Assembly: GCA_021463515.1 (NCBI GenBank)
Contig: JAJTYZ010000015.1
Span: 1-40,682, forward strand
Direction of reading: 5' to 3'
DNA: 40,682 bases
Source: Chthoniobacterales bacterium
Lineage (GTDB): Bacteria > Verrucomicrobiota > Verrucomicrobiia > Chthoniobacterales > JACTMZ01
Both the position numbers and the translations under genes were made by a program. Below the pieces are notes generated by a model. It was not told where the DNA came from and did not search any database. It was given only the letters and a program-made list of their open reading frames with translations. Shown here in pieces: positions 14,341-23,533 of this stretch; within the stretch, counting starts at the first letter, position 1, and the number at the start of each line of letters is the position of its first letter.

Positions 14341-15393
14341 ATGAAGCACCTTCTTCTTTTTTTTCTCCTCCTCGTTTGCGTGAGTGCCAATGGCGTTGCC
14401 CAAATCGAGCCGCAATTTTTGAAAGATGCGTCCGGAACGAAGGATCATAAACTGACCGAGCGGATGGAAGGCTCGGTGATTCTACGGCAGACAGTGAAAA
14501 AGTTTGCGGACCTTACCGTCGCCTTGGGGCGCGTGGAATTTGATTACGGAGCGCAGAAATTCAAACCGTTCGATAAGCTGAAGCCTGAAGGTGCGCTGAC
14601 AACGACATTTTACCGGCTCCCCAAGGACGCCACGACATTGGAAGGCATTCGAGCTTATCAGGCGGCTCTTGAAAAAAAGGGGTTTGCGGTGCTTTTTGAA
14701 GGCAGCAGTGGTGGTTCGCCTACGGGGGATAACAATTTGCTCGATGATGGCTATGGGCGTTTTTTGAACCAAGTTTATCAGACGGAAAAGGACTACGGGA
14801 TTCAACAATACACGCTGCCCGGATGTGATGATTTTCGCTATATGGCGTTGAAGAAATCCGGCGCGGACGGAGCGGGGGATGTTTATGTCACGCTTTTTTT
14901 CGGAGCTGTTACGGATGGGTGGAAAGCGCCGGAACAAGGGATCAACGCAGGCACCGTGATTGCCCGCATGGATGTACTCGAAGAAAACCCGCGAGCCGAT
15001 CGCATGGTTCTTGTGAAAGCACCGGAAATGGAAAATCAGATTTCCTCCACCGGACGCGTGATGCTCTATGGAATTCTTTTTGATTTTAATAAGGACACCG
15101 TGAAGCCGGAGTCCAACCCTACATTGGAACAAATTGCGGCCCTTTTAAAAAACGAGCCGGAGCTCAAACTTCTCGTGGTTGGTCATACAGACAACGTGGG
15201 AGAATTTGAATTTAATCGTGACCTTTCCACGCGTCGCGCCAATGCCATCGTGCAAGCACTCGTCTCGCGTTTTGGCGTAGAAAAATCCCGCCTCTTTCCT
15301 TTCGGTTGTAGTTTTGCAAGCCCCGCCGCTCCAAACACAACCGAAGAAGGTCGCGCCAAAAATCGCCGCGTAGAGCTTGTGCGTTGGAATTAA
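14341..15393 (+). CDS. OmpA-family peptidoglycan-binding outer-membrane protein
   Basis: 350 residues. A signal peptide (MKHLLLFFLLLVCVSANGVAQ) is followed by a mixed alpha/beta N-terminal domain (about 25-235) of the DUF4892-like type found in some OmpA proteins. The C-terminal OmpA domain (about 240-350) carries VMLYGILFDFNKDTVKPES, LVVGHTDNVGEFEFNRDLSTRRA and EEGRAKNRRVELV. The DLSTRRA segment includes the residues that bind diaminopimelate in peptidoglycan. It should tether the outer membrane to the cell wall. No 8-strand barrel is apparent, so insertion may be through the N-terminal domain or it may be periplasmic. Confidence 0.9.
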   Translation: MKHLLLFFLLLVCVSANGVAQIEPQFLKDASGTKDHKLTERMEGSVILRQTVKKFADLTVALGRVEFDYGAQKFKPFDKLKPEGALTTTFYRLPKDATTLEGIRAYQAALEKKGFAVLFEGSSGGSPTGDNNLLDDGYGRFLNQVYQTEKDYGIQQYTLPGCDDFRYMALKKSGADGAGDVYVTLFFGAVTDGWKAPEQGINAGTVIARMDVLEENPRADRMVLVKAPEMENQISSTGRVMLYGILFDFNKDTVKPESNPTLEQIAALLKNEPELKLLVVGHTDNVGEFEFNRDLSTRRANAIVQALVSRFGVEKSRLFPFGCSFASPAAPNTTEEGRAKNRRVELVRWN

Positions 15394-15415
15394 GCACATA
15401 AGTAAAATTGTCCTC

Positions 15416-15468
15416 GAGTGCCGCGCCCGCCACAGGAGCCGATTCCCGCGTCCTCACGGGAAACATCA
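15416..15468. repeat. Dispersed repeat, family 2, copy 1 (inverted relative to copy 2)
   Basis: The reverse complement of this stretch aligns with 22091-22143 over about 50 bases: shared ATGTTTCCCG, GAGG, CGCGGGAA, CGGC and GGCGGGCGCGG blocks with scattered substitutions. Both can fold, through TTCCCG/CGGGAA arms (15443-15448 with 15457-15462). A further hairpin, CACTCT-CCA-AGAGTG, lies at 15478-15492. The stretch fills the gap between the OmpA gene and the toxin-antitoxin pair. Confidence 0.65.
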
Positions 15469-15590
15469 TGAACAAAACACTCTCCAAGAGTGCCTTGCAA
15501 ATGGTAGTGCAAAGACATATTTCAAAATAAGTAGGTCTTTTCCACGCTGACTAGTTTCCGCATTTGTGACTCAAAAATTCGTATTTACGT

Positions 15591-15611
15591 TCTTACTTTT
15601 TTGTCTTACTT
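15591..15611 (+). promoter_or_regulatory. Direct repeat upstream of AbrB-type antitoxin
   Basis: TCTTACTT occurs twice (15591-15598 and 15604-15611), 13 bases apart and ending 8 bases before the antitoxin ATG. Autoregulatory operators of swapped-hairpin antitoxins often lie here; binding is inference. Confidence 0.25.
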
Positions 15612-15619
15612 GTGCACTC

Positions 15620-15874
15620 ATGCAAGCAACGCTTACTTCGAAAGGGCAAATCACCATTCCCATCCATGTCCGCAAGCGTCTCCATCTCAAGCCGGGTGAC
15701 GTTCTGGAGTTTGATGAGACCGCACCTTTTCTTAAAGCCACCAAGGCCATTTCGCCCAAGGCGTGGGAAGAATTTTGCAAGGGCTGGAAAGATCCGTGGG
15801 TTGGCATGAGCATGGACGAAGTCCTGAATGAACTCCGAGGAGAAGTCGCGCTCCCGTCCACCGATGTGCGATGA
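15620..15874 (+). CDS. AbrB/MazE/SpoVT-type antitoxin
   Basis: 84 residues from the ATG at 15620 (MQATLTSKGQITIPIHVRKR). This N-terminus is the classical swapped-hairpin AbrB DNA-binding motif, TSKGQITIPxxVRxxLxLxxGDxLxF. The C-terminal 45 residues (ATKAISPKAWEEFCKGWKDPW...) should bind and neutralise the partner toxin. The open frame continues upstream to a GTG at 15566, but that extension only adds a hydrophobic stretch not found in the family. Its TGA overlaps the PIN toxin ATG (ATGA), so toxin translation is coupled. Confidence 0.9.
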   Translation: MQATLTSKGQITIPIHVRKRLHLKPGDVLEFDETAPFLKATKAISPKAWEEFCKGWKDPWVGMSMDEVLNELRGEVALPSTDVR

Positions 15875-16290
15875 GAACAGCTGTTGATTCTTCTGTCCTC
15901 CTGTGCATTCTCCGGCGGCAACCCGGCTACGACACTTGGTGTGCTTGCCTCAGTCGGGCAGCAGAAGAAGGCAGCCTACTCATTTGCCCAGTAGTTTTTG
16001 CGGAATGTTCTGTCGGCTTTGCCACGGCGGAGGAGGCTGAGACCCGGTTCGATTCTTTGGGTCTCAACTACGATGCCTTCTCGCCCCGGTGCGCCTACTT
16101 TGCGGGCCAGATATTCCTGCGCTATCGCGGCGAGGGTGGGCCGCGTCACCATCTGCTTCCGGACTTCCTCATCGCTGCACATGCCTGCGTGCAAGCAGAC
16201 CGACTCGCTGCCATTGATCGCGGCTACCTCCGCACCTATTTCCCCGATTTATCCGTGCTCTCTCCTTCTGTAAGCTTGGAACATCCCTGA
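15871..16290 (+). CDS. PIN-domain toxin (VapC-like)
   Basis: 139 residues, a predicted endoribonuclease toxin paired with the AbrB-type antitoxin. PIN active-site acids are all present: D6 (TAVDSSVLL), E45 (VFAECSVGF), D98 (LLPDFLIAAHA) and D116 (AAIDRGYLRTYF). It is the second and last gene of the module and has a 4-base overlap with its antitoxin. It differs clearly from the VapC at 11835-12260, so the two modules are not a recent duplication. Confidence 0.92.
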   Translation: MRTAVDSSVLLCILRRQPGYDTWCACLSRAAEEGSLLICPVVFAECSVGFATAEEAETRFDSLGLNYDAFSPRCAYFAGQIFLRYRGEGGPRHHLLPDFLIAAHACVQADRLAAIDRGYLRTYFPDLSVLSPSVSLEHP

Positions 16291-16325
16291 GGCTTTGAGA
16301 GATGGGGAGGTGATCATCATCTGCA

Positions 16326-17423
16326 TCAGCGCGTTTTTTTCTGAAAAAGGAGTGTCATGCCTAATCCACCGATGATTAAGACGTAGGTTGTTGGCTCGGG
16401 GATAATGCTGTAAATCCAGTCGGCATTCTGCGACACGCGGGTCATATTCGCGACGTCTCCGTAAAGCCCTCGCGGATCGAGTTGACCATTGTAGATTTCA
16501 TCCCATGGGTTGTGCCCCCACGAAGTGATACCCGCCAATTTCCATTCCCCACCATCCTCAATAAAGGTCGGACCACCGCTATCACCCGGTGCAGAGGAGC
16601 CTTCGAGAATATCTTCGGCATTGGTGAATTGGACGTATGAACTATCGTATCCTGAAATTTCTCCCGCAGGATTTAAGGTGGTGACGATGTTTGTATCATT
16701 ATCCCAAATCCAAGTTTCGCCGTTGGTGTAATAAGATTCGCTCAAGGTATTTTGGTGGGCATTGGTTATGCCGTCGAAGTCGGTGACAAGAAGTCCTCCT
16801 GTATAAGCTCCATTGGTCTGGGTGGTAACGCGGTCTATGATATTTGCCGCTGCGTGCAAAAAGGGTGTGGCGTTGGTTTGCTCATACCAAGGCACCGTGC
16901 CCGTGCCAATATAGCCGACACCAAGGGTAATGCCGACTTTATCATATTCATCCACTTTGGTGTAGAGTGTTGGGAAGGTGATGTTATTGGTGATGGGTGC
17001 TGTAAGTCTAAAAAGGGCAATATCCCAACCTTGCGAGGGACCGGATTCGGTCCAAAGCGGATGATGAAAGAGCGCATTCATATCCGCATCATACGTCGAG
17101 CCGCCCACGGTGAATTGGAGAGAGGTCACGAGATTGGTTTTCCAATTATGCGCCGCTGTGAGCACCCATTCGTTGTTGAGCGAGGTGCCGGTGACGTTAA
17201 ATTCCTCGATGCCCTCCGTCACCTTGATCGTCCCTACTGCCTCAAAAATGGGGTAGTTGACATAGTCGGCGGCAAAAGCACGGCTGGCGTCAAAGCCATT
17301 TGTTCCGGCATACGTGAATCCATCGGCAATCAGGATGGCGCGGACGGACGAGACCGCACCTATGCTGAAAGTCATGAGCAGCGCGAGAAAGGCTGCGAAG
17401 CCTATGGGCTGGAGCGGCCTCAT
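16326..17423 (-). CDS. Trypsin-like serine protease with PEP-CTERM sorting signal
   Basis: 365 residues. A signal peptide (about 1-29) precedes an S1-family chymotrypsin fold with an intact catalytic triad: H92 in WVLTAAHNW, D134 in GWDIALFRL and S282 in APGDSGGPTF. The C-terminus is a PEP-CTERM signal: IIPEPTT at 341-347, a hydrophobic helix and a basic tail, QKKTR. The protein should therefore be exported and processed by an exosortase at the PEP motif, then linked to the cell surface or exopolysaccharide. The ATG overlaps the stop of the upstream PEP-CTERM repeat protein (ATGA), so the protease and that protein are likely made together. Confidence 0.93.
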   Translation of the reverse strand: MRPLQPIGFAAFLALLMTFSIGAVSSVRAILIADGFTYAGTNGFDASRAFAADYVNYPIFEAVGTIKVTEGIEEFNVTGTSLNNEWVLTAAHNWKTNLVTSLQFTVGGSTYDADMNALFHHPLWTESGPSQGWDIALFRLTAPITNNITFPTLYTKVDEYDKVGITLGVGYIGTGTVPWYEQTNATPFLHAAANIIDRVTTQTNGAYTGGLLVTDFDGITNAHQNTLSESYYTNGETWIWDNDTNIVTTLNPAGEISGYDSSYVQFTNAEDILEGSSAPGDSGGPTFIEDGGEWKLAGITSWGHNPWDEIYNGQLDPRGLYGDVANMTRVSQNADWIYSIIPEPTTYVLIIGGLGMTLLFQKKTR

Positions 17424-20400
17424 TTTCTCGATATCCGCCGTGCCCTCGCAAAGAGCGCCGCCCCCAATCCGAGCAGGAGCAGGGCACTGGTGCCCGGCTC
17501 GGGGACAACTTGCACGACGAGGCTGCCTTGCTCGAAATAGGCGGCTTTGTAGGGGTCGCCTTGGCCACTGATCTGATAGCGGTTATTGTAGCCCCAGTTT
17601 TGTAGGCCGAGGAGCGAGAAGTCGGTGGTTGTGCCGTCTATGAGAGTGTAGGTGCCTTCGGCGACGGTGTCGTCGAGGCCGAGCAGGCTGGCGATGCCGA
17701 AGCTGCTGTCCATGCTCACGGTGCCAGTGACGGTGAGAGTTTTGTTGAAGGTAAAGACGAATTCGGCATCGGAGAGCAGGGTGAGATTGCCGGTGATGGT
17801 GCCGTTTCCACCCACAGACCCGCCGCTTTGAATTGTCGTGTCGGCCTGGAATGCTCCATCCACCAGAAGCTCGCCTGCGGTGGTGGCACTGGCGGCGGTG
17901 AGGCTGCTCCCCGCGCCGATGTAGATGGTGCTTTGAGCATTGGCGGTGAGGGCACCGGTGGCGTTCACCGTACCGCCGTTAGAGATGGTGAGAGTGCCTG
18001 TGCCATTTTCACCGACGGTGAGAGTTCCGTTGATGTCCCAGTGACCTGTCAAGCCATGCACGAGAGCTTGACCCGAGCTGTTGGTGTCTTTCCCGAGAAC
18101 GGTCGAGCCGCTGGTGGCTGTGGCGTCAAAGACCGTAAACGCTCCATGCCCGCTTTCACCAACAGTGAGTGTGCCCGAGTTGGTCCACACGGAGGTGGTG
18201 CCATCCACAGACACCTGACTCGGGGTGTTGCTCGATTGTGAGTTAATCGAAACGGAAGCGGCAGAAACCTTGGCTCCATCCCAGATCATAAGCTGGCTGT
18301 ATCCGCCGTTGACATTGTTGCCGACGTGTAAGTCACCGCTGACGAGCCATGCGGAGCCTGCGCCGTCGAGATCCACCGAGCCGCCAGAGCCTGCGTTCAG
18401 ACCGAGATAGCTTGCTGTCGAGCGCACCACTGCGCCGTAGCGGATGCGGGCGGAGCCAAAATCTTTATAGCCCGCTCCGAAAACGCCGGTGCCGTCCATG
18501 TCGAGGTGCAGGGCCCCGCCATTGCCAAAGGTGTTACTGTCGGTGCCGTCTATGATAATGTCCAGGCTGGAATCGAAGACGAGTCCGTTGGCGGAGATGG
18601 TGCCATTGCCCTGCAAGTTGGTCATGGCGGTGTAGAGCGTCTTGGCGGTGACATTGCCACCGTTGGTAACTCGGAGGGTGCCTGTGCCGCCTTTGCCGAC
18701 GTAGAGGCTGCCCGCCACGGCCCATGTGGAGTTGGTGCCGATGACTGTCACAGCACCGGTTCCGGTGACCTGATTTCCGATGAGGCCGCTGCCGCTCTCG
18801 ACGCGTCCTCCATTTTGCACGGTGAGGGTGCCGATGCCGCGCTCGCCAATCGCGAGCCACGAGGCGTTGGTCCATACGGCATTTACGCCGGAAATGGTGG
18901 CATGGCCCAATCCATTAGTTTCATCCCCAATCGAGCCGAAGACCGAGGTGACGCGTCCATCATCAATGACATCGAGTTGCCCATAGGCCGCATCGCCAAT
19001 GTAAATGCCCGAGCTGTTGTTCCACTGCGAACCGGTGCCGGTGACGATCACATTCCCCACTCCGCCGCTGGCCGCCCCCACATAGCCCACGGCATTCGAG
19101 ACCACGCCGCCGTTTTCCACGTGCAGATCGCCCTGCCCCGCCACGCCGACCTTCAGGTCGCCGGTCATGATCCAGGTCGAGTTGGTGCCCTGAATGAAGA
19201 CTTGCCCGTAGCTGTTGGTGAGGCTACCAATGACTCCCGTGGCACTCACGGCCCGCCCGCCATTCAATGCTTGCAATCTAGCCTGACCCTTCTCGCCCAC
19301 CACGAGCTGGTTGGCATTGGTCCAGACGGAACCCGCATTCATGAGATAGACCGAACTTGAGAAGCCCACGCCCGAATCAATCGAACCCCACGCCGAGGAA
19401 ACCTTCCCTCCATTGCCAATGAACAGGGTCGCCCGTCCCTCCTGACCGGCATAAAGCCCCGAGGTGATGTTCCATTCCGAACCCGCTCCCGTAACCGTTC
19501 CGGTGCCCGCCGATCCTGCCATCATCCCCAGATAGCCCTCGGAGGAGGATACCTTAAGCGCGTCTTGAATCACCATTTCTCCCGCGCCGCGAAAACCCAC
19601 GCCGAGCGCGGCGGTGCCGTCAATATCGAGATACATATTTCCGCCGCCGCCGAAGGTCACGGTCTGGTCGGTTAGGTGGGTGCTGTCAAAAATGAGCTTG
19701 TCTCCCGGCGCGCTGAAATCCAGCACCACGCCTTTGGCATAGATGTTGCCGGTGCCGTGCAGGCTGTCCATCGCGGTGTAGAGCGACCGGGTTCGCAACT
19801 CAGCGATGTTACCCACCGTGAGACTGGCCGTGCCGCCCCGGCCGACATAGAAGTCGCCGCTATTGTCCCAGGACGAGCCCCAGCCGGTGATCTCCACCGT
19901 TCCCGTGCTCCCCGCCTGATCGGCAACCGAAGTGTCCACGGTGCCCACGGTGCCATACTGGCCAACCACCATCTTTCCCGTTCCGGCGCGTCCGATAAAA
20001 AGATCGCTGCTGCTCTCCCAATAGGAAGAAGAATTCACCGTGACCGTGCCGTCGCTGCCCGCCTCGTTCCCAATGCGCCCCACCGTGCTGTAAACGCCCA
20101 CGTAATTCTCGAGCAGCAGGCTCCCCGTACCCGTGTCGCCGATGATGAGCGGCCCACCAACAAGCCAGTCGTTTGGGAGAGGATTCGGGGAAGGAAACGG
20201 CGTAACATTACCCGAGGCCGTCACGGGTTGGGCGTGGGCGACGGGGGTGGTGAGGAGAAAGGCCGCGCTGAGTGCGAAGAGGGAGAGAAGTGTGGTTTTC
20301 ATAAGTTTCATAGGTCGTATAGGTCCCATAAGTCCCATAGGTCCTATTTTCCGCACCCGGCGCGCCCCTGCGAAGAGCGCGACTCCGACACCCACCAGCA

Positions 20401-21004
20401 GCAGGGTGCCCGTTCCGGGTTCAGGGATGATTTGGAACTGCCCCATGGAAGCTCCCTGGATGTTTCCATTGCCCGGCCGGATTTCTCCAATATAACCCTC
20501 TGTGGTGTTCAACAAAGAGGCCCATAGGGATAAGTCAACGCTCAGAGTCCCACTAAAGGCGCGGCCCCCCGAGGCGAATTTCATGAGTGACCGCGGATCC
20601 TGCCAAACCGACAAGTGCCGACCATTCCCATAGCTTGGGGTATAATTGTTGGGGATGGCGTAATTGAAGGCACCAACCATCGGCTGAGCAGGCGCGGTGA
20701 GAGTGCCACTGGCCGATGCGGGAATCCTGAAGGATGAATCAGAGGTAAAAAAATCCATGAGCGTGAACCCGCTGTCCGACTGCATGAGAAAAACGTCCCA
20801 CGAGGGGTTGTTTGTCGTCGCGAAGAATTCAACGGATGACGCATTGGTCGTTTTAATTTGCAGTAGAATCGCTGCCTGTGATGTGGCAGCAAAGGTGCCG
20901 AGGATGATGGCTCCCAGAAGGAGTGTATGGAGTGTGGTTTTCATGAAGAGTTTCTGCAACACGTGCATTAAAGACACTTTTCTCCTGAATACACTCCGTG
21001 TCAT
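17420..21004 (-). CDS. Double PEP-CTERM protein: small PEP-CTERM module fused to T5SS/PEP-CTERM repeat protein
   Basis: A single 1194-codon frame with two complete secretory modules. Module 1 (1-~222) has a signal peptide at about 21-44 (MKTTLHTLLLGAIILG...SQA), a ~150-residue domain and a PEP-CTERM signal (IIPEPGTG, hydrophobic helix, GARRVRK). A linker of five tripeptides of form [GRK]-[PL]-[MI] is encoded by the 9-bp tandem repeat at 20301-20347. Module 2 (~232-1194) begins with its own signal peptide (MKTTLLSLFALSAAF, ending AHA). It continues as about ten ~50-residue repeats of pattern G-x-G-x-V-x-V-x-G-x-x-S-x-W...VG-x-x-G-x-G-x-L-x-V-x-NGG, which match T5SS/PEP-CTERM-associated repeats. 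It ends with VVPEPGT, a helix and RARRISRK. An SD-like GAGGA lies 6 bases before the ATG at 21004. It may be two ancestral genes; ATGs at 20311 or 20302 could start module 2 independently. Confidence 0.85.
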   Translation of the reverse strand: MTRSVFRRKVSLMHVLQKLFMKTTLHTLLLGAIILGTFAATSQAAILLQIKTTNASSVEFFATTNNPSWDVFLMQSDSGFTLMDFFTSDSSFRIPASASGTLTAPAQPMVGAFNYAIPNNYTPSYGNGRHLSVWQDPRSLMKFASGGRAFSGTLSVDLSLWASLLNTTEGYIGEIRPGNGNIQGASMGQFQIIPEPGTGTLLLVGVGVALFAGARRVRKIGPMGLMGPIRPMKLMKTTLLSLFALSAAFLLTTPVAHAQPVTASGNVTPFPSPNPLPNDWLVGGPLIIGDTGTGSLLLENYVGVYSTVGRIGNEAGSDGTVTVNSSSYWESSSDLFIGRAGTGKMVVGQYGTVGTVDTSVADQAGSTGTVEITGWGSSWDNSGDFYVGRGGTASLTVGNIAELRTRSLYTAMDSLHGTGNIYAKGVVLDFSAPGDKLIFDSTHLTDQTVTFGGGGNMYLDIDGTAALGVGFRGAGEMVIQDALKVSSSEGYLGMMAGSAGTGTVTGAGSEWNITSGLYAGQEGRATLFIGNGGKVSSAWGSIDSGVGFSSSVYLMNAGSVWTNANQLVVGEKGQARLQALNGGRAVSATGVIGSLTNSYGQVFIQGTNSTWIMTGDLKVGVAGQGDLHVENGGVVSNAVGYVGAASGGVGNVIVTGTGSQWNNSSGIYIGDAAYGQLDVIDDGRVTSVFGSIGDETNGLGHATISGVNAVWTNASWLAIGERGIGTLTVQNGGRVESGSGLIGNQVTGTGAVTVIGTNSTWAVAGSLYVGKGGTGTLRVTNGGNVTAKTLYTAMTNLQGNGTISANGLVFDSSLDIIIDGTDSNTFGNGGALHLDMDGTGVFGAGYKDFGSARIRYGAVVRSTASYLGLNAGSGGSVDLDGAGSAWLVSGDLHVGNNVNGGYSQLMIWDGAKVSAASVSINSQSSNTPSQVSVDGTTSVWTNSGTLTVGESGHGAFTVFDATATSGSTVLGKDTNSSGQALVHGLTGHWDINGTLTVGENGTGTLTISNGGTVNATGALTANAQSTIYIGAGSSLTAASATTAGELLVDGAFQADTTIQSGGSVGGNGTITGNLTLLSDAEFVFTFNKTLTVTGTVSMDSSFGIASLLGLDDTVAEGTYTLIDGTTTDFSLLGLQNWGYNNRYQISGQGDPYKAAYFEQGSLVVQVVPEPGTSALLLLGLGAALFARARRISRK
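20301..20347. repeat. In-frame 9-bp tandem repeat joining two PEP-CTERM modules
   Basis: Five consecutive 9-base units on the plus strand (ATAAGTTTC, ATAGGTCGT, ATAGGTCCC, ATAAGTCCC, ATAGGTCCT) plus AT. Because 9 is a multiple of 3, the frame of the minus-strand gene is preserved and no stop codon is present between the first PEP-CTERM tail and the second signal peptide. Confidence 0.85.
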
Positions 21005-21025
21005 GAAAAATCCTCATGAGGAACC

Positions 21026-21072
21026 CCCTACTTTGGTAGGGTAATAGTATTAGTTAGGCTAATAGATTAGCC
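21026..21072. promoter_or_regulatory. Palindrome cluster upstream of PEP-CTERM operon
   Basis: Three inverted repeats lie within 47 bases: CCCTAC-TTTG-GTAGGG (21026-21041), TAATA-G-TATTA (21042-21052) and GGCTAAT-AG-ATTAGCC (21057-21072). The first is 22 bases from the PEP-CTERM ATG at 21004 and about 10 bases upstream of its Shine-Dalgarno sequence. The shape fits operators for a dimeric regulator (LuxR/NarL-like or similar); the factor is not identifiable. Confidence 0.5.
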
Positions 21073-21219
21073 ATGATGTTTATGGAGCCGCGGCAGTTTT
21101 TTGTCGCCTTCAGAGTTGTGAGGCTTTGGCAGGTACATCAGCAAGATGACGTAGTTCTAGCGGTTTTGAGGAAACTTTTTACTCCTTACTGAGGGGATTT
21201 TGGATAGGATGCAGGGCTT

Positions 21220-22023
21220 ATGAAAATTCTGCGTTATCTTGATGCCGCAGGGCAAATTCACTTTGGAGAGCAGAGGGCTGCAAATGTTGTGAAGCGATTC
21301 GAGGGTGATCCTTATTCGGGGCTGATACCAACGGATGAATTGGCACAGGTGAAAAAAATTCTGACGCCACTTATTCCTACGGCGATTCTTTGCATTGGAC
21401 TTAATTACAAGAAGCATGCTGCGGAAACAAATGCGCGGATTCCGGAGGTTCCCATCCTTTTTATGAAATCCCAAAGTGCGGCCCAAAATCCTGGTGATCC
21501 CATCGAGATTCCGACGCGGCTGGCAAGTCACGAGGTGGATTACGAGTGTGAGTTGGCAGTGGTTATAGGACGCACCTGCAAAAATGTTCCTCGAGAGCAC
21601 GCTTTCGATTACGTGCTTGGATACACCTGTGCCAATGATGTGAGTGCGCGTGATTGGCAAAAGAAGTTCGGAGGAAGTCAATGGTGCCGAGGCAAAGGGT
21701 TCGATACTTTCGCTCCGCTTGGGCCAGTGCTTGTGACGCCGGACGAAATATCAAATCCAAATTCACTTACTATTAGAACCCTCCTCAATGGCGAGGTGGT
21801 GCAAGATTGTAATACGGAGGATATGATTTTTGATGTTCCGGCACTCATTGAATTCCTTAGTGGCAGCACTACGCTTGCGCCGGGAACGGTGATTTTAACC
21901 GGCACGCCGCATGGTGTGGGAATGGCTGCGAAGCCGCCACGCTGGCTTAAACCGGGCGATGAGGTGGTGGTAGAAATTGAAAAAATCGGGCGACTTGTGA
22001 ATCCCGTGGTGCTTGAGGTGTAG
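21220..22023 (+). CDS. Fumarylacetoacetate hydrolase-family protein
   Basis: 267 residues. FAH-superfamily enzymes hydrolyse or decarboxylate beta-diketo or 2-hydroxydienoate acids using Mg/Ca. The core motifs are present: ILCIGLNYKKHAAE (catalytic His66), PILFMKSQSA, SHEVDYECELAVVIG (metal ligands E109 and E111), GYTCANDVSARDWQ (ligand D140), GKGFDTFAPLGPVLVT and LTGTPHGVGMA. It resembles the bacterial 2-hydroxyhepta-2,4-diene-1,7-dioate isomerase/ureidoglycolate lyase-like branch; the true substrate is unknown, and no pathway partners are adjacent. The start has no strong ribosome-binding site. Other catabolic functions such as oxaloacetate decarboxylase are possible. Confidence 0.93.
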   Translation: MKILRYLDAAGQIHFGEQRAANVVKRFEGDPYSGLIPTDELAQVKKILTPLIPTAILCIGLNYKKHAAETNARIPEVPILFMKSQSAAQNPGDPIEIPTRLASHEVDYECELAVVIGRTCKNVPREHAFDYVLGYTCANDVSARDWQKKFGGSQWCRGKGFDTFAPLGPVLVTPDEISNPNSLTIRTLLNGEVVQDCNTEDMIFDVPALIEFLSGSTTLAPGTVILTGTPHGVGMAAKPPRWLKPGDEVVVEIEKIGRLVNPVVLEV

Positions 22024-22090
22024 CTCTGTGTAATGTGTTTGGTTCGGGGGCACAGGCGTTTGCATGTGTTAGACTGCGTCCTCTCATTTC

Positions 22091-22143
22091 GATGTTTCCC
22101 GCGAGGGCGCGGGAAACGGCACCCGAGGCGGGCGCGGTACCTC
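22091..22143. repeat. Dispersed repeat, family 2, copy 2
   Basis: Contains a perfect 10-base hairpin, GTTTCCCGCG (22094-22103)-AGGG-CGCGGGAAAC (22108-22117), followed by GGCGGGCGCGG. It matches the inverted copy at 15416-15468. It lies between two convergent genes. Just upstream, near 22047-22056, is GGGGGCACAGGCG-like sequence resembling one arm of family 1 module A. It might act as a bidirectional terminator, but no T-run follows. Confidence 0.65.
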
Positions 22144-22148
22144 TTTAG

Positions 22149-22880
22149 TTATTCTGCGGAGGGGAAGGGGAGGGTGCCAACAGGCGTGCGGAGACGTCCG
22201 GGTCTTTTGGCGGTGGCTTTTCTTTTGAGGAGACCTTCAGCGGCCAGTTGTTCGTGAATGGCGGCGGCGATGGTACGGCCTGTGCGGTTGGCATCTTCGG
22301 TGACCCCTTTACCCGTGATGCCACCGGCCGCAACGGCACCGCCTGCAATGCTCACGGCGACGGGAATGCTGACGGGTGAGGGAACAAGCATTCCGACGAG
22401 GCCAGGCTCGGAATTGCTGCCACCGGTTGTTTCAAAAGTCAGCCACGGCGTCGTCGTCGAACGTTCCAAATTAAAAACTTTCACCGAAGATCCCATGCGA
22501 GAGCGTCCAATACCAAAGCCGATGCCTAAGCGTAGGGCGCGACTGCCTTGAAGTGCGCGGAGAACTTTGCCGCGCACGAGGAGCCCGCCGGAGGGCGTTG
22601 GTGCGCCGTTTTCCAATAATTTGCCCGGCAAACCCCAGCGATCTATGCGTGACATGATTCCCTTGGCGACTAAATGCCCCACGGTAGCCTTAGGGTTTTT
22701 GTCTCCTGACTTTCCTGCCACGTCAAAGTCCGCCCCAAGCGGTACATCAAATGGGCGCACCCAAAGTACTTTGGGCAATGTCGTCGGTGCTAACGCTGCG
22801 TTTTCGCGTTGTTCTACGATGCTAACGGAAGAGCAAGCGCCGAACAGCAGGCACACCAACGTCAGCAGACGGTAATTCAT
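22149..22880 (-). CDS. DUF4410-like lipoprotein
   Basis: 243 residues with a lipoprotein signal (MNYRLLTLVCLLFGAC, lipobox FGAC, Cys16). The body has the DUF4410 look: an early 'KVLWVRPFDVP' strand, GGLLVRGKVLRALQGSRALRLGIGFG (Gly-rich central strand pair), a mid segment with TTPWLTFETTGG, a short hydrophobic Gly/Ala stretch, and a helix (RTGRTIAAAIHEQLAAEGLL) near the end. The basic C-terminal tail is extra. Function of the family is unknown. The ATG overlaps the stop of the upstream CBM9-like gene (ATGA), and it is the last gene of the argD-argF run. Confidence 0.7.
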   Translation of the reverse strand: MNYRLLTLVCLLFGACSSVSIVEQRENAALAPTTLPKVLWVRPFDVPLGADFDVAGKSGDKNPKATVGHLVAKGIMSRIDRWGLPGKLLENGAPTPSGGLLVRGKVLRALQGSRALRLGIGFGIGRSRMGSSVKVFNLERSTTTPWLTFETTGGSNSEPGLVGMLVPSPVSIPVAVSIAGGAVAAGGITGKGVTEDANRTGRTIAAAIHEQLAAEGLLKRKATAKRPGRLRTPVGTLPFPSAE

Positions 22881-23533
22881 TTTGTGAAATTCAAGATGGC
22901 GTATCTTTTGCGTTTGTGGAAATTAGGTTCTTCATCAAGTACGGGATAGGACGAGAGGAACTTCTTTCCTCCCAATTCGTCATAGTCGTAGCGGCTGAAA
23001 AACACATCCCAGCCTTTCTTGGCTTCACGTCCGCCAAAAACCTCCCACGGCACTGTAAATATCGTGCGCCAACCATTCTTGGTTTGCGTGGAAACCACAC
23101 GAATGTCCTTGTCGGCCTTCGGGGGATCCGTTGGCACAAAATAGTTACTGTAAAAATAAAACGTCTTTCTTCCTGTGGGTGTTGCGTGCAATTCGATGTA
23201 GCCGCGCTCGCCGCGACGGCCCATAAAAATCTCCGCTGTGTCGCCAATGACGTATTGCTCAAGGCCGTCACGCTTTCCTGGTGACACGATGTTTTTATCG
23301 GTACCATTGAAGACAAAGAATGCCGCTTGATCATTCCATAGCACGCGCATTGTTGCGGGTTCGGTTTCTATTTTATGGGAGCCACGCAAGGTCACGGGAG
23401 GAACGTTAATCCATGCGGCTTTGTCGTGAAGAGCACGCTCGGGATTGAAGTTCGGCGCATAATGTCCGGTGATTTTAGGAGTGGCGAGGAGGGGTGTTGC
23501 GGAGGCAACGAGGAGGATGAGGATACGGTGCAT
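22877..23533 (-). CDS. Secreted CBM9/DOMON-like protein
   Basis: 218 residues. The signal peptide (MHRILILLVASATPLLA) is followed by a single domain of the carbohydrate-binding family 9-like type: a W near residue 41, MRVLWNDQAAFFVFNGTD, IGDTAEIFMGRRGERGYIELHATPTG, WRTIFTVPWEVFG and GWDVFFSRYDYDE. In CBM9-like domains these strands form a ligand-binding jelly roll, often a secreted sugar or haem binder. No catalytic domain is attached. It is 6 bases downstream of argF and coupled to the DUF4410-like lipoprotein gene. A link to arginine metabolism is not evident from sequence. Confidence 0.7.
   Translation of the reverse strand: MHRILILLVASATPLLATPKITGHYAPNFNPERALHDKAAWINVPPVTLRGSHKIETEPATMRVLWNDQAAFFVFNGTDKNIVSPGKRDGLEQYVIGDTAEIFMGRRGERGYIELHATPTGRKTFYFYSNYFVPTDPPKADKDIRVVSTQTKNGWRTIFTVPWEVFGGREAKKGWDVFFSRYDYDELGGKKFLSSYPVLDEEPNFHKRKRYAILNFTK

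Follow-up and report, generated by a model that had tools for sequence, protein, structure and literature searches.

In viral polyproteins, an internal signal sequence restarts export and is cut by signal peptidase. In bacteria, the substrates of the PEP-CTERM/exosortase system (PF07589, TIGR02595) carry a signal sequence, and their C-terminal region combines a PEP motif with a hydrophobic helix and a basic cluster (Haft et al., 2006; PMC1569441). The accessible part of that paper reports that 87% of PEP-CTERM proteins have fewer than 10 residues after the domain, and cautions that PEP-CTERM regions with long tails or in unusual positions may be non-functional. Repeated elements lying in frame within many unrelated genes are described, in the accessible part of PMC10969869, as Rickettsia palindromic elements (Ogata et al.), and the accessible part of PMC9879509 describes tandem repeats of Borg elements that add new protein segments. 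In the open-licence literature we found no report linking PEP-CTERM with a polyprotein, and no description of the GGACNNATR array reported below, which may be in print among the subscription papers, most of which lay outside this scope; the terms nonanucleotide, 9 bp and Prevotella are all absent from the accessible part of PMC12699852.

Two export units in one open reading frame

The locus described here lies in a window, by which we mean the whole stretch of 40,682 nucleotides that was analysed. A preliminary description had noted an uninterrupted frame with two signal peptides and two PEP-CTERM signals, and this is borne out: there are no in-frame stops from the first module (A) to the second (B), PF07589 recognised two PEP-CTERM stretches (Table 1), and a 17-residue hydropathy scan of the fused frame gave only four peaks, at residues 32-48 and 239-255, corresponding to the two signal sequences, and at residues 198-214 and 1170-1186, corresponding to the two PEP tails. 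By the first pair of peaks, both modules have an N-terminal signal sequence. Module B ends as such proteins do, with PEP motif, hydrophobic helix and basic cluster, and the frame stops right after. The PEP motif of module A as encoded stands 1001 residues before the stop; taken as a separate module, A would have it near the C-terminus, like 24 near-full-length relatives as judged by frame length. The loop between the two units (residues 212-236) has seven positive and no negative residues, and the second part of the frame has 11 matches to the T5SS/PEP-CTERM repeat (TIGR04393; 374 bits against a cut-off of 23). The same genome holds 21 PEP-CTERM matches and two exosortase matches (PF09721, over cut-off).

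Judged by where homologues begin to align, module A is likely to start natively at M21 (20944) and module B at M235 (20302). The small protein had earlier been drawn as residues ~1-222; it is a complete PEP-CTERM unit, with its bounds moved to the likely start at M21 and to residue 219. The second signal peptide had been placed from M235, in agreement with the hydropathy peak there and with a homologue (B2, below) that starts exactly at this residue. The AHA preceding Q259 is presumably the signal peptidase cleavage site of this second signal sequence.

Table 1. Features of the fused frame and its surroundings (positions in the window), and genes at other loci whose protein-family matches enclose or adjoin an array.
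Feature	Position	Strand	Evidence or remark
Fused open reading frame	17420..21004	-	1194 codons, open throughout
Module A, small PEP-CTERM protein with its own signal sequence, residues 21-219	20348..20944	-	family of separate proteins of ~200 aa; signal and tail by hydropathy
First PEP-CTERM signal, inside the fused frame, with PEP at residue 194	20357..20428	-	PF07589 over cut-off
Bridge, 9-bp-period GGACNNATR-type array, residues 220-234	20303..20347	-	best-preserved units 20309-20344
Module B, T5SS/PEP-CTERM repeat protein with its own signal sequence, residues 235-1194	17420..20302	-	TIGR04393 x11; 408/708 identical to G475 B2 from M235
Second signal sequence, residues 235-258, AHA site before Q259	20231..20302	-	hydropathy
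Second PEP-CTERM signal, true C-terminus	17435..17506	-	PF07589 over cut-off
Next gene, trypsin-like protein with weak PEP-CTERM tail	16326..17423	-	its ATG overlaps the fused-frame stop (ATGA)
CCCTACCAAAGTAGGGGG element upstream of A	21024..21041	-	also precedes PEP-CTERM repeat genes in G475 and G008
AAA_12 helicase	L176		array inside match or between matches
GH43 enzyme	L187		array between its two domains
M24 peptidase	L188		array inside match
M16 peptidase	L189		array inside match or between matches
RecB-like helicase	L198		array inside match or between matches; NCBIfam match below its cut-off

A scan for the motif in the window and in 42 fetched stretches, which were picked around PEP-CTERM genes or module homologues and so give a survey of such genes and not of whole genomes, recovered 73 PEP-CTERM-like tails, leaving uncounted the motifs in frames that run off a stretch with fewer than 60 residues left. 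Two tails in one frame occurred in the window frame only. The distance from motif to stop was 20-29 residues in 62 of the 73 and exceeded 45 in three, namely the tail in the window (1001 residues), that of G475 B1 (67) and one at L128 (47). Tails close to the stop agree with the norm given in the accessible part of PMC1569441.

The element CCCTACCAAAGTAGGGGG had three matches in the 45 sequences scanned, one each in the window, near 6522 of L098 (minus strand) and near 4681 of L132 (minus strand). Within the scanned window it stands upstream of A only, a point in favour of the fusion reading, and it is likely a shared operon control site. On the other side of the next gene, positions 15566-16290 (plus strand) presumably encode an AbrB-type antitoxin and, after it, a PIN-type toxin, by the look of their translations.

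Relatives keep the modules apart

A profile of module A, built from six sequences, had 41 matches in 31 of 384 genomes of the class, a count that may miss some, with at most eight first-look candidates scored per genome. At least 150 of the 202 profile positions were covered in 25 of these matches. The window's own match lies in a stop-to-stop frame of 1197 codons; the other 24, four of which were members of the profile (two in G049 and one each in G054 and G479), lie in frames of 201-356 codons, and one of them, in G679, has two stops within the match. A search with the single sequence of module A found matches in five of 213 genomes of the order, its own included, and sequence searches of genus and order found no full-length A in other genomes of the genus; A may therefore have been acquired from outside or lost in sister species. 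An AlphaFold model of module A from six sequences had a mean pLDDT of 37.5, too poor for use.

Module B had matches in 18 of 57 genomes, its own included, the closest being in G475, from another family of the order, where the order is B1, B2, A with each gene in its own frame, as against A-B in the window. The three G475 genes follow the CCCTACCAAAGTAGGGGG element that in the window precedes A. The first residue of B2 aligns with M235. Homologues of each half as separate genes, proposed earlier as a check, thus exist for module A in the 24 relatives and for both modules in G475. Separate modules with a second start had been named as grounds against a fused product; in relatives the modules are indeed separate and a start corresponds to 20302, but this concerns ancestry only and puts no stop into the frame seen here. 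The contig end cuts A of G475 at its 3' end, placing its stop outside the sequence, and this, like the differing gene order, counts against the fusion reading.

Along its length, module B changes its nearest relative: residues 1-545 are closest to G475 B2 (306/540 identical, against 206/500 for B1) and residues 546-760 to B1 (116/206, against 74/206 for B2). By these identities module B is a mosaic whose parts come closest to two different tandem paralogues in G475, so neighbours in this kind of operon have been joined more than once. As read from its sequence, B1 of G475 also has no stop directly after its PEP tail, its frame crossing another intergenic element and overlapping B2 by ATGA; its signal sequence overlaps a reverse GGACNNATR array of three units. 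The two spacers of this operon (L132, contig positions 300-700 and 2709-2900, minus strand) share another element (GTAGCAGCGGCAGTCCCCTGCCGCT ... GTCACAGAGTGACGCGGCTACAA). Plasmid relatives of the fusion were sought as well: 49 records match, none with 80% query cover in one place, and the five listed matches begin at residue 255 or later and cover module B only.

A nine-base array at the joint

Residues 220-234 (IGPMGLMGPIRPMKL) are a DNA array with a period of 9 bp read as protein, with four units at 20309-20344 and an exact two-unit match of 22 bases. The third-position GC content of this linker is 0.21, compared with 0.63 in A and 0.73 in B. Each unit of nine bases is three codons, so a change in repeat number leaves the frame intact; the array is free of stops in two of three forward frames, with a stop at the array edge in another forward frame. 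Rfam at gathering score had no matches over 15000-23000, leaving the joint with no known RNA element. The array is not a high-copy repeat of its own genome (G000), which holds only the joint array and one weak match at C20:3458. This dispersed repeat was absent from the preliminary description.

An exact 23-mer of the joint array recurs in 16 stretches of the genome collection, with record titles that include Victivallales, Hydrogenedentes, Prevotella/Prevotellaceae, Planctomycetaceae, Schlesneria and Verrucomicrobia/Verrucomicrobiia, some being titled bacterium only. Across the phylum, a two-unit pattern with up to one mismatch gave a summed 274 matches in 35 of 387 genomes, overlapping matches within one array being counted separately, against six for the reversed pattern; 16 of the 35 genomes have a single match, some of these by chance. 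A wider pattern was found in 56 of 213 genomes of the order (controls, 11 matches in eight genomes), with counts near or above 100 in some, such as G470 (194 matches), G435 (109), G471 (104) and G031 (90). All eight genomes from several phyla that were reached through array loci, and were thus selected for holding an array, had 36-419 matches each and none to controls. These statements on spread, and those on function below, come from pattern searches made without gene annotation.

A period-9 scan of 560,685 bases, consisting of the window and 44 fetched stretches that are mostly PEP-CTERM neighbourhoods, found such arrays at just two loci, the window and G475 C4 (L133:6712-6765), and no general link between arrays and PEP-CTERM genes is claimed. 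An inverted mate within 250 bases accompanies eight of 53 arrays, all at other loci and none at the joint; the inverted pairs at L014, L023, L025 and L028 could form hairpins. An identical degenerate array sequence is present at two places in one genome (L260; G010 C10 and C12) and in a sister species (L259; G005 C214), as if copied as a block.

Arrays inside other genes

In three Prevotellaceae genomes, 38 stretches at listed array matches contained 42 arrays of at least three units, many of them intergenic; three of the 38 had none at this threshold. Fourteen array-holding frames were tested against Pfam (L195, L196 and a few others were left out), and in six of them, PrmA and the five in Table 1, a family match encloses the array or two matches in one protein flank it. 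The ribosomal-protein methyltransferase PrmA (L183:2721-3626) has the array in frame at residues 112-132, within a match spanning residues 60-298, and its best NCBIfam stretch picks up again where the array ends, at residue 130 (position 112 of the profile). The remaining eight show family-supported coding on one side of the array at most: the array either precedes or follows the matched domain, or there was no match to any family. The pattern scan added a further case in an alpha-2-macroglobulin (L024).

The N-terminus of four Prevotellaceae genes (L021:4745-5986, L021:5995-7248, L193:2922-4175 and L193:4215-7301) is written almost wholly by an array, as Gly-Leu/Pro-Met/Ile runs followed by lipobox-like LMGC or LMSC, or by PVRAQE, and these N-termini are predicted to act as signal peptides. 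Array stretches can be misannotated, since their Gly-x-Met runs bear a weak likeness to the Pfam collagen model, with scores under its cut-off.

Probable origin and predicted fate of the fused frame

We think it moderately probable that two neighbouring PEP-CTERM genes, likely of one operon, were joined in one frame through the dispersed 9-bp array between them. The open frame, the array at the joint and the separate modules in relatives were seen directly, and arrays lying in frame within known protein families elsewhere lend support to a fusion bridged in this way. Such a fusion would need only the loss of A's stop and the right phase, the array being stop-free in the frame used. Fusion by stop-codon loss had been suggested before, as a recent event; G475 and the module A family support the fusion, and one genome gives no date for it. 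Against it stands the sole instance, in a draft genome that is 65.65% complete, and the contig is possibly wrongly binned. The locus could still be two genes if A's stop is masked by a one-base error, of assembly or of sequencing, next to the array and B starts at 20302 or 20311. With the stop at the array edge a single indel would suffice, separate modules are the rule among relatives, and the contig comes from a draft; however, the usual error at a repeat is a wrong number of units, which would change the length by nine and leave the frame unshifted, and an array of ~45 bp is short enough that ordinary reads should span it. We consider such an error unlikely.

If the DNA is right, ribosomes leaving A would meet no stop and, barring slippage, would therefore continue into B, making synthesis of an A-B polyprotein likely; this is the first step of a reading already offered in the preliminary description, and it follows from module A ending in no stop. 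A second start at M235 may also yield B. From the known biology of these signals, the polyprotein would be threaded through the inner membrane like two ordinary units, with transfer stopped by PEP tail 1, the positively charged loop left in the cytoplasm, and export restarted by signal sequence 2. Exosortase would then cut at PEP 1 and signal peptidase I after residue 258, giving two normal surface proteins. In that case the fusion would be nearly neutral, while coupling the amounts of the A and B proteins. Another outcome is that the fused protein is made and stays whole, either because signal sequence 2 remains in the membrane as an internal anchor or because PEP tail 1 is dead, so that one two-domain anchored protein results. 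We hold this to be quite improbable: PEP signal 1 still scores above the Pfam cut-off, its basic cluster is kept, and signal sequence 2 retains an AHA site of the kind that signal peptidase presumably cuts. The caution in the accessible part of Haft et al. (PMC1569441) about oddly placed PEP-CTERM regions speaks for the uncut product, and against exosortase processing at PEP 1. Selection might instead have favoured the fusion as a two-protein precursor, with A and B acting together and needed in equal amounts, and the homologues of A and B do adjoin in G475 too; yet there is a single instance, the order in G475 differs, the linker bears no sign of constraint beyond that of array DNA, and positive evidence of selection was not found, so we give this idea very little weight. 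Both the uncut product and the selected precursor include the fusion itself, and our confidences in them overlap with that in the fusion.

Beyond the array-bridged fusion of neighbours, we tentatively propose that the joint exemplifies an as yet undescribed coding repeat, (GGACNNATR)n, that is shared across phyla. It may spread between and into genes without breaking the frame, may supply linkers between domains and whole signal-peptide cores (Gly-Leu/Pro-Met/Ile runs leading to a lipobox or AxA-like site), and here may have given rise to a polyprotein gene that resolves itself, its product being processed by exosortase together with signal peptidase.

Comparison with known systems

As a natural experiment, the fusion could show whether an internal PEP motif is a site that exosortase can cut, and whether two exported proteins can be obtained from one bacterial polyprotein with ordinary enzymes. 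The repeat may be more interesting than the fusion, since it points to a nine-base unit common to distant phyla from which in-frame linkers and signal-like N-termini, as well as gene fusions, may arise.

Unlike viral polyproteins with internal signal sequences, the product predicted here is bacterial and has exosortase as a second, putative processing enzyme. Module B shares its 11 repeats with the T5SS/PEP-CTERM repeat proteins (TIGR04393), but is preceded in frame by another complete protein. Both modules resemble the exosortase substrates described in the accessible part of Haft et al. (2006; PMC1569441) in all four sequence features, and the genome encodes exosortases, but here one PEP-CTERM signal is far from the stop and shares its frame with a second complete unit. 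The array is like the Rickettsia palindromic elements, as given in the part of PMC10969869 available (Ogata et al.), in lying in frame within many unrelated genes; those are palindromes of ~150 bp, whereas this is a 9-bp tandem unit found across phyla, which at the joint forms a short direct array of about 45 bp. Like the tandem repeats of Borg elements, it adds new protein segments, but the Borg repeats arise independently, by the accessible part of PMC9879509, whereas here one type of unit recurs in distant phyla.
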